Assembly: GCF_900205865.1 (NCBI RefSeq) | Contig: NZ_LT906662.1 | Location: 3,051,411-3,115,410, forward strand | Reading direction: 5' to 3' | Source of the DNA: Thermoanaerobacterium sp. RBIITD | Lineage (GTDB): Bacteria > Bacillota > Thermoanaerobacteria > Thermoanaerobacterales > Thermoanaerobacteraceae | DNA: 64,000 nucleotides | Part shown: piece after piece, positions 31,455 through 44,265 of the stretch | How positions within the stretch are numbered: position 1 is the first letter of the stretch | Layout of the letters: every line of letters begins with the position of its first letter | Notes under the pieces: model-generated | Told to the model about the DNA's origin: nothing | Database searches by the model: none | What the model saw: the letters and a program-made list of their open reading frames with translations, nothing else | Position numbers and translations under genes: made by a program

Positions 31455-31685
31455 ATGAAAAGCGATGATGAGGACAACTTATGCAAATTAAACTTTTAAG
31501 AGAGTTGGCGGTTGGTGCAAGCCAATAAGTTTATTTGACATATATCACCTCTAAGCCGCGGGCTGAAATAGTAGTAGGCTTTGCCGGGAGATTCCCGTTA
31601 TTCTATGAGTGATTAAGGATTTTCCTTAATAAAAAGGGTGGTACCGCGACTTCTCGTCCCTAATGGATGGGAAGTTTTTATTTTA
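31455..31685 (+). promoter_or_regulatory. T-box leader (isoleucine) controlling ileS
   Basis: A T-box riboswitch. Stem I has the probable specifier ATC at 31544-31546 (Ile). The T-box AAGGGTGGTACCGCG is at 31634-31648, where TGGT would pair with the ACCA end of tRNA-Ile (A73). The terminator is CTTCTCGTCC/GGATGGGAAG followed by TTTTTA. Uncharged tRNA-Ile stabilises the antiterminator and allows ileS transcription. Confidence 0.9.
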
Positions 31686-35711: not shown

Positions 35712-35740
35712 TTGACATATAATATAACGCGTTATATAAT
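35712..35740 (+). promoter_or_regulatory. Consensus trp promoter with a 16-bp palindrome in the spacer
   Basis: TTGACA (35712-35717), 17-base spacer, TATAAT (35735-35740): a full consensus promoter. ATATAACGCGTTATAT (35722-35737) is a perfect palindrome filling the spacer and overlapping the -10 box, a plausible operator. Confidence 0.85.
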
Positions 35741-35749
35741 TTAATTAAT

Positions 35750-36082
35750 TTAAGCGAATAAAATCGATGACCAGGAGTAGTAAATATCATACTAAGTTAT
35801 AGCGAGTCCGGAATGGTGCAAGCCGGGTACTGAAGGTGATATTGAATGGGCCTGTGAGATGAAATGTGAAATTAAAGTAGCATATTCCGGTAGTCTACCG
35901 TTAAAATGACAGGGTATCGAGAAATCTGTACCTGCAGAGATATTTTGTACTTAGGTGGCAATAACGAAATTAAAGCATTTCGTCCTTAGTGGATGAAGTG
36001 CTTTTTTAAACCACAAAAGTATGAAATAATTTGGGTGGCACCGCGGAGTCACTTCGTCCCATGGGATGAAGTGACTTTTTTG
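35750..36082 (+). promoter_or_regulatory. Trp T-box leader with two successive antiterminator/terminator modules
   Basis: A single stem I region carries the specifier TGG at 35847-35849 (TTGAATGGGCC). It is followed by two T-box/terminator modules. Module 1: T-box TTAGGTGGCAATAACG (35951-35966) and a 12-bp terminator AGCATTTCGTCC/GGATGAAGTGCT (35974-36002) plus T6. Module 2: canonical TTGGGTGGCACCGCG (36031-36045) and a 13-bp terminator (36047-36076) plus T6. Both have TGGC, fitting tRNA-Trp with G73. Only about 25 bases separate the modules, so the second has no stem I of its own. Confidence 0.85.
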
Positions 36083-36102: not shown

Positions 36103-37530
36103 ATGTTAAATATTAGTAAAGAGGAATTCGATAAACTCAAAAGTAAAAATGTTGTTTTTCCAATCTATATTGAAATAAACGGTGATGAACTGACACCTGT
36201 TAGTATATTTTACAATTTGAAAGGAAAGAACAAATTTTTACTTGAAAGTGCAGAAAGCGGAAAAGAGTGGGGAAGATATTCCTTTATTGGTTCAAATCCA
36301 TATCTTAAGGTAAAAAGTTATGGTAATAAGGTTGAAATTGAAAATAAGCAACGAACAATTAAATACGGAAAGGTACTTGATTATATCAAAGAAAATATTC
36401 AACAAAATTATGATAAAAATGGACTCAAGTTGCCTTTCACAGGCGGTGCCATTGGATATGCGGGATACGATATTATTAGGCAATATGAAAAACTACCAGA
36501 TAAAAACATCGATGAAATAGGTGTCCCAGAATCGTATTTCATGTTTTATAAAGAATTTGTATGCTACGATCACTTCAAGCATACAGTATCTGTTATATAT
36601 AATGTATTTCCTAATGATTTTGAAAGCTATGATGCTATAAAAGAAAGGCTGAGTTCACTATTAAACGAAATTAAAAATAACATCGAAAACCATGAGTTAC
36701 CTGTAAAATCTAATGCAACCAATTTTAAGTCGAATTTTACTATGGAGGAATTTTGCAAAACGGTAGAAAAGGCAAAAGAATATATAAAAAACGGCGATAT
36801 ATTTCAAGTCGTACCATCACAAAGATTAATAGCTAAAACTGATTCACAGCCATTTGATATATATAGACGGTTAAGGTCAATAAATCCATCGCCATATTTG
36901 TTTTATATAGATTTTGGTGATTATCAATTAATGGGTTCTTCCCCTGAAAGCCTTGTTGCTGTATTTGGTAACAAAGTAATAACAAATCCTATTGCTGGAA
37001 CAAGGCCAAGGGGCAAAAGTGAGGAAGAAGATTTAAAACTTAAAGAAGAACTTATAAATGATGAAAAGGAAAGAGCAGAACACGTTATGCTTGTTGACCT
37101 TGGAAGAAATGATATAGGTAAAGTCAGTGAATTTGGCAGCGTAAAACTGGATAGGTTTATGGAAGTAGATTTTTATTCACATGTGATGCATATTGTGTCG
37201 AAAGTTTCTGGTAAGCTTAAAAAAGATATGACAGCATTTGACGCATTAGCAGCATGTTTGCCCGCAGGTACAGTTACAGGTGCTCCTAAGGTGAGGGCAA
37301 TGGAGATAATTGATGAACTTGAAAATATAAGAAGGTCATTTTATGCTGGTGCAGTCGGATATTTTTCCTATAATGGCAATATGGATATGTGTATAGCTAT
37401 AAGAACGTTACTTTTAAAGGATAATATAGCATATCTTCAAGCAGGGTGTGGCATCGTATATGACTCAAATCCAGAATCTGAATATTATGAAACATTAAAT
37501 AAAGCAATGGCACTTAAGGAGGTGCTGTAA
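36103..37530 (+). CDS. trpE: Anthranilate synthase component I
   Basis: A 475-residue large subunit that converts chorismate to anthranilate using ammonia from TrpG. Marks: PSPYLFYIDFGDYQLMGSSP (chorismate-binding region), TNPIAGTRPRGKSEEED, LVDLGRNDIGKVSEFG, and the C-terminal AGTVTGAPKVRAMEIIDELE. The N-terminal ESAESGKEWGRYSFIG segment carries the LLES-like feedback site for tryptophan. AAGGAGGTGGGTAT precedes the ATG. It is the first gene of trpEGDCFBA behind the Trp T-box, and overlaps trpG by one base. Confidence 0.97.
   Translation: MLNISKEEFDKLKSKNVVFPIYIEINGDELTPVSIFYNLKGKNKFLLESAESGKEWGRYSFIGSNPYLKVKSYGNKVEIENKQRTIKYGKVLDYIKENIQQNYDKNGLKLPFTGGAIGYAGYDIIRQYEKLPDKNIDEIGVPESYFMFYKEFVCYDHFKHTVSVIYNVFPNDFESYDAIKERLSSLLNEIKNNIENHELPVKSNATNFKSNFTMEEFCKTVEKAKEYIKNGDIFQVVPSQRLIAKTDSQPFDIYRRLRSINPSPYLFYIDFGDYQLMGSSPESLVAVFGNKVITNPIAGTRPRGKSEEEDLKLKEELINDEKERAEHVMLVDLGRNDIGKVSEFGSVKLDRFMEVDFYSHVMHIVSKVSGKLKKDMTAFDALAACLPAGTVTGAPKVRAMEIIDELENIRRSFYAGAVGYFSYNGNMDMCIAIRTLLLKDNIAYLQAGCGIVYDSNPESEYYETLNKAMALKEVL

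Positions 37531-44189: not shown

Positions 44190-44265
<76 letters not shown>

Follow-up and report, generated by a model that had tools for sequence, protein, structure and literature searches.

A tRNA-Trp T-box leader upstream of trpE in Thermoanaerobacterium carries two antiterminator/terminator modules, the first apparently nested in stem III of the second

T-boxes with duplicated terminator-antiterminator elements were reportedly described by Vitreschak et al. in 2008. In the excerpted text of a 2020 review (PMC7583486), such partially tandem T-boxes are listed as known and their mode of action as unknown. The same excerpts place an RRRxG motif ahead of stem III, state that the T-box discriminator requires a stem III with RRRxG and AA as its flanks, and state that an antiterminator lacking stem III shows no appreciable tRNA binding. 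For fully tandem trp T-boxes, a digital, pseudo-cooperative response is expected according to the excerpts of two further papers (PMC12452182, PMC2494555).

The window analyzed here is a stretch of 64,000 nucleotides from the 3.40-Mb genome of Thermoanaerobacterium sp. RBIITD. A covariance-model scan with Rfam placed a single RF00230 match before trpE (120.6 bits, E = 6.9e-27), which exceeded the gathering score of 93, and the first of the two modules was passed as an insertion in the alignment. The fold of the leader had a z score of -4.65, and 0 of 100 shuffles folded equally low. The UGG listed in Table 1 is identified as the specifier by a position rule; together with the single RF00230 match, this agrees with a preliminary description of the locus, which had proposed a single Trp specifier. 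The tRNA-Trp terminus is CUGCCA, and its GCCA can pair with the UGGC of both T-box 1 and T-box 2; hence the UGGN/NCCA complementarity of T-boxes and tRNA ends was found at both sites, as had been proposed.

Table 1. Features of the trpE leader and associated genes (positions in the window)
Feature	Position	Strand	Basis or remark
Promoter-like TTGACA-17-TATAAT	35712..35740	+	12/12 consensus bases; shuffles average 2.4 weaker sites
T-box leader, stem I to antiterminator 2	35758..36064	+	RF00230
Specifier UGG (Trp)	35847..35849	+	context GAAUGGGCC, specifier loop of Rfam alignment
Hairpin CAGGGUA..UACCUG, interval from stem IIA/B to stem III	35910..35934	+	motif search
Purine flank GAGAU before proposed stem III (RRRxG-type)	35937..35941	+	flank analysis
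Proposed stem III, 5' arm	35941..35952	+	pairs with 36017-36028; conserved pairing
Antiterminator 1, degenerate T-box (UGGC 35956-35959)	35953..35986	+	sequence; -4.8 kcal/mol as drawn
Terminator 1	35972..36007	+	14-pair stem, U run; -19.6 kcal/mol as drawn
CCAC, can mask GUGG (35955-35958) of T-box 1	36011..36014	+	MFE fold
Proposed stem III, 3' arm	36017..36028	+	pairs with 35941-35952; conserved pairing
Antiterminator 2, canonical T-box (UGGC 36036-36039)	36033..36060	+	sequence, Rfam match
Terminator 2	36045..36081	+	15 pairs, loop of 4, U run (terminator scan)
trpE	36103..37530	+	TIGR00564, 610 bits, above cut-off
tRNA-Trp (CCA)	44190..44265	-	3' end GCCA

As shown in Table 1, one stem I and specifier are followed by two antiterminator/terminator modules, which is the arrangement of a partially tandem T-box. 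The two complete sensor domains of a fully tandem T-box were not found, since there is one RF00230 match upstream of trpE; a hidden second stem I in module 2 was rejected for the same reason. Only 29 nt separate U run 1 from the UGGC of T-box 2, which upholds the earlier statement that module 2 could not hold a specifier of its own; a second stem I would not fit there either. Both modules (35953-36007 and 36033-36081), also claimed earlier, were present in all nine genomes of the genus and in all 20 genomes of the host's family (f1). By eye, L014 (T. butyriciformans; TrpE 82% identical) and the genus genome L036 have the same leader. The window also contains an ordinary single T-box at 31456-31664 (126.4 bits, specifier AUC), upstream of a gene at 31667 that is presumably ileS.

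Module 1 consists of A1 (AGG/CCU), UGGC and A2 (ACGAAAU/AUUUCGU), and its terminator has a stem formed by 35972-35985 and 35991-36004 with a six-U run at 36002-36007. A simple terminator scan of the window listed terminator 2 and missed terminator 1, because three U pair with AAA and the tail is too short for the scan rule; the terminator 1 call rests on the sequence, the fold and conservation. Module 2 has GGGTGGCACCGCG and a 15-pair terminator. As the preliminary description had stated, T-box 1 is degenerate and T-box 2 is canonical. T-box 1 of the source genome (GGTGGCAATAACG) is one base longer than in the eight other genomes of the genus, and it has an A before CG that is common to the source genome and one other (L034), the remaining seven having G. 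GGTGGC was found at T-box 1 in 9/9 genomes of the genus and in nine nested leaders found via TrpE, which were read from T-box 2. The script used for the set of 66 leaders described below demanded GGTGGC at T-box 1, and UGGC conservation is therefore claimed from the genus and TrpE-found sets only.

In the MFE fold, positions 35941-35952 paired with 36017-36028, and all of module 1 lay inside this helix. The arms are UAUUUUGUACUU/AAGUAUGAAAUA in the source genome and GUCCUGUGUU/AAUACAGGAC in Thermoanaerobacter. When the growing leader was folded, terminator 1 was present without the enclosing helix at position 36007, and both the helix and terminator 1 were present at 36032. As drawn, the enclosing stem and terminator 1 together had an energy of -25.5 kcal/mol; adding four GUGG/CCAC pairs, which cover part of T-box 1, brought this to -33.3.

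The comparison set consisted of 66 double-module leaders from 15 families, grouped into 22 family/gene clusters. Double T-box patterns supplied 57 of these leaders and TrpE the other nine, and the enclosing helix was not a criterion for inclusion. Pattern searches undercount, as the leaders of family f2 (GGTGGCT) were missed by pattern and recovered via TrpE. One pattern search matched 39 of 398 genomes, and 22 of the matches were judged to be real; two of the other 17 were read, and the rest were judged from the matched sequence. The loci dropped were L078 and L079 (stem I), L081, L082, L084, L085, L089-L093, L095, L096, L098, L100, L101, L115, L128-L135, L137, L143, and L150. The first 19 TrpE loci and refetched copies (L127, the copy of L103, and L104-L108) were excluded against double counting. 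Those 19 loci comprised eight double leaders (L014-L018, L020, L023, and L029), eight with one canonical T-box motif, and three with none; the single-motif group belongs to the Bacilli, and 420 nt before the gene-side match were examined in it. A further 24 TrpE loci yielded nine nested, three serial, and two single leaders, with serial or single status assigned by eye; in the other 10, the flanks that were fetched showed no canonical T-box motif. Three double-module trpE leaders (L165, L166, and L160) appeared by eye to be serial, with a local stem III for each module. In Piscibacillus halophilus (L027), the end of a second T-box/terminator was seen just upstream of the trp T-box within a 420-nt flank, an arrangement that is probably fully tandem.

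The double-module layout precedes trpE, trpB-like, trpP, trpF-like, and aspartate-tRNA(Asn) ligase genes and one aminotransferase-like gene. For these labels, six proteins were scanned (one example per kind) and 18 leaders were translated, and the labels of the remaining leaders were assumed from their families; the TrpF match of L097 and the aminotransferase match of L103 fall below curated cut-offs. When 20 other double leaders were scanned with RF00230, 15 passed the gathering score with one match each, so whole-model T-box surveys probably count double-module leaders as single.

The preliminary description had suggested a comparison with other trpE leaders and had placed the two units in a row. 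Two units are present and double modules recur, but the comparison points to a nested layout, with module 1 inside stem III of module 2, and hence to a different mechanism. The main evidence came from a permutation test with one leader per family/gene cluster. Arms paired with their own partners at a mean of -13.67 kcal/mol versus -8.01 for swapped arms, and 0 of 20,000 permutations reached the own-partner mean (22 clusters). Chance pairing between AT-rich linkers was rejected by this test. Taken singly, the own partner ranked first in 6 of the 22 clusters by row and in 9 by column; it is therefore the set, and not any individual leader, that carries the case. Across the 66 leaders and 15 families, pairing of the arms persisted while their sequences varied: there were 48 distinct arm pairs, and each of the first ten positions showed at least five kinds of standard pair.

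The surroundings of the helix were also those of a stem III. RRR preceded it in 53 of the 66 leaders and AA followed it in 45, and the placement of the arms had not required either. The gap between the helix and T-box 2 was 6 nt in 38 leaders, 5 nt in 18, and 7 nt in 10, which is the range that was allowed. For the counts of pair kinds and flanks, and for the search for near partners described below, arm placement maximized pairing. A 6-nt gap with a local stem III was found in five of eight other T-boxes inspected in the source genome. When 13 leaders were folded up to T-box 2, the enclosing helix formed in 11, the exceptions being L144 and L141, and a purine-flanked helix of five pairs was not found in L097, L139, and L140 among the 66. 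The arms of three serial leaders also paired at -15 to -19; thus, pairing energy alone cannot separate nested from serial leaders.

Based on the stem III-type flanks and the 6-nt gap, the enclosing helix is best interpreted as the stem III that belongs to module 2, its loop holding module 1. The RRRxG-stem III-AA discriminator was found for module 2 (GAGAU, the helix, and AA), the last flank base in the source genome being U instead of G. Neither this discriminator nor a near stem III partner was found for module 1. The comparative evidence supports the nested structure well, and with module 1 in its loop, stem III would be closable only once the polymerase had passed terminator 1. The hairpin at 35910-35934 was considered as the stem III of module 1 and rejected, as it occurs in single and serial trp leaders too. 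Its motif (GGRUAUC..GUAYC) was present in 54 of 69 leaders, the three serial ones among them, and in none of the aspS-type or aminotransferase leaders of that set. It is also visible in Bacillus trp leaders with a single T-box, and it looks Trp-specific.

These results suggested a model that we regard as reasonably probable, in which two gates act in series on one tRNA-Trp reading domain, with gate 1 nested in the stem III loop. When the polymerase is at terminator 1, the 3' arm would not yet have been made, and gate 1 would be judged without the enclosing stem III. If antiterminator 1 were held by uncharged tRNA-Trp, the polymerase would proceed and terminator 1 would then fold harmlessly behind it. 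Stem III would close round module 1, in the source genus also covering part of T-box 1, and the acceptor end of the tRNA would be freed. With stem III complete and the usual spacing kept, T-box 2 would be presented, and the charging of the tRNA would be tested a second time before trpE was transcribed. The comparison supports the two modules, the nested stem III, and its spacing. From these we infer the function of the two-gate leader: termination at terminator 1, a response of gate 1 to tRNA, release or hand-over of the tRNA, and a lower leak or a steeper response. A steeper response is one possible outcome; if the same tRNA stayed bound, the gates would be correlated and the gain would be a lower leak.

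It is plausible that both decisions depend on tRNA, because GGTGGC is kept at T-box 1. The main competing explanation, which we consider unlikely, treats gate 1 as blind to tRNA, a partial terminator or a leftover that reduces basal transcription by a fixed factor; module 2 alone would sense tRNA, and stem III would be retained since module 2 needs it. Several features of module 1 are in keeping with this. ACC has been lost from T-box 1 in most trp leaders; as read, it is gone in family f1 and in f2, f25, f41, and f92, where UGGC remains and where a near stem III partner for T-box 1 was not found. A2 of module 1 is short or absent in several families, module 1 of family f1 has no stem III of its own, and terminator 1 is much more stable than antiterminator 1. 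Against a tRNA-blind gate, the UGGC that can pair with the tRNA end is retained next to bulge bases that vary, and T-box 1 is canonical in L099, L136, L157, L103, and most aspS-type leaders. Gate 1 may nevertheless be insensitive to tRNA, since ACC is lost in family f1 and tRNA may scarcely bind to a discriminator that lacks stem III.

The sequence that emerges after terminator 1 may also mask T-box 1. The masking CCAC was found in eight of nine genomes of the genus, with CCGC in the remaining one, and the pairing gave p = 0.06 in the source genus. In 19 of the 22 clusters (the linker was too short in the other three), masking reached p < 0.05 in six, with a Fisher p of 1e-4. It was insignificant in L099, L136, L144, and L157, where T-box 1 is of the canonical type.

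Under a strict rule, 5 of the 66 leaders (L157, L103, L099, L136, and L094) were found to have a near stem III partner ahead of T-box 1. In these five (T-box 1 is canonical in four of them), a single 5' strand is able to form stem III ahead of either T-box 1 or T-box 2, and the far partner was taken when the leaders were folded up to T-box 2. This sharing suggests that stem III is handed over from gate 1 to gate 2. A switch of this kind, with one 5' strand and its purine flank serving two discriminators in turn, is a possibility that we hold tentatively. The later 3' strand would pull stem III off gate 1 and fold gate 1 into the loop; the aminoacylation sensor would be rebuilt at gate 2, and a single bound tRNA would be proofread twice. 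In this reading, gate 1 of the family f1 trp leaders, having lost its own stem III, may sense the presence of tRNA more than its charge. Two aspS-type leaders (L144 and L141, upstream of aspartate-tRNA(Asn) ligase genes) did not switch to the far partner in the folds and kept the near hairpin, which makes the hand-over less probable. The aspS-type leaders show a local hairpin with a gap of 8-10 nt and no AA, and it was not counted as a near stem III. Double-module leaders ahead of aspartate-tRNA(Asn) ligase genes (one of which was scanned) were seen in L138-L142 and L144-L149, where the same strand has a local hairpin and a far partner.

Two independent gates without a hand-over would have module 2 capture a new or rebound tRNA, so that the gates multiply and the response becomes steeper, and the nested stem III would merely keep T-box 2 near stem I. 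Multiplying gates are expected for tandem T-boxes in the excerpts of PMC12452182, and two serial leaders (L165 and L166) seem by eye to have a local stem III for each module. In the five leaders with a shared stem III strand, however, the two discriminators are mutually exclusive, and we consider independent gates improbable. That the layout is a functionless chance duplication or an assembly artefact is scarcely credible: the first T-box is degenerate and nothing else was found in favor of this idea, whereas the layout is kept in 9/9 genus genomes and 20/20 family f1 genomes and was seen in 15 families. The arrangement would fit a history in which the duplicated unit began within stem III and comprised the 3' strand, the T-box, and the terminator, the first 3' strand decaying later.

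In 12 of 21 trpB-like/trpP/trpF leaders (L083, L086-L088, L111-L114, L116, L117, L119, and L126), a two-codon frame was observed downstream of terminator 2 and ahead of the gene. It consists of a ribosome-site-like GGTGA followed by [ATG]TG ACN TGA A[AG]G, and all four bases occur at the third position of the Thr codon. The pattern had 15 matches in 1,238,346 bases of loci on both strands. One leader with this UGA-containing frame is preceded, at a distance of about 1.1 kb, by a selenocysteine tRNA gene (L086:90-179; RF01852, 79.1 bits).

In the open-access literature searched, which does not extend to Vitreschak 2008 and Gutierrez-Preciado 2009, no description was found of nesting in stem III or of a shared stem III strand. 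The feature of the trpE leader that appears to be new relative to known partially tandem T-boxes is the helix 35941-35952/36017-36028 that would enclose module 1. As excerpted, the partially tandem T-boxes of PMC7583486 have the same composition as the trpE leader, with one stem I and specifier and two antiterminator/terminator modules. Fully tandem T-boxes of trp operons (PMC12452182, PMC2494555) likewise place two serial terminators before trpE in the excerpted text, but each of their units has its own sensor domain, and the leader described here has one. Two serial terminators are also found on one transcript in tandem riboswitches (PMC9481103), which have several expression platforms; in the excerpts of that paper each platform follows its own aptamer, unlike in the trpE leader. 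The canonical single T-box at 31456-31664 resembles module 2 in the flanks of stem III, the 6-nt gap, the T-box, and the terminator, but its stem III loop is short, whereas that of the trpE leader would hold a whole module. The nested stem III offers a concrete, testable mechanism by which a single sensor could be read twice: if the model is true, pairing of a strand made later transfers an essential discriminator element away from gate 1 and on to gate 2.
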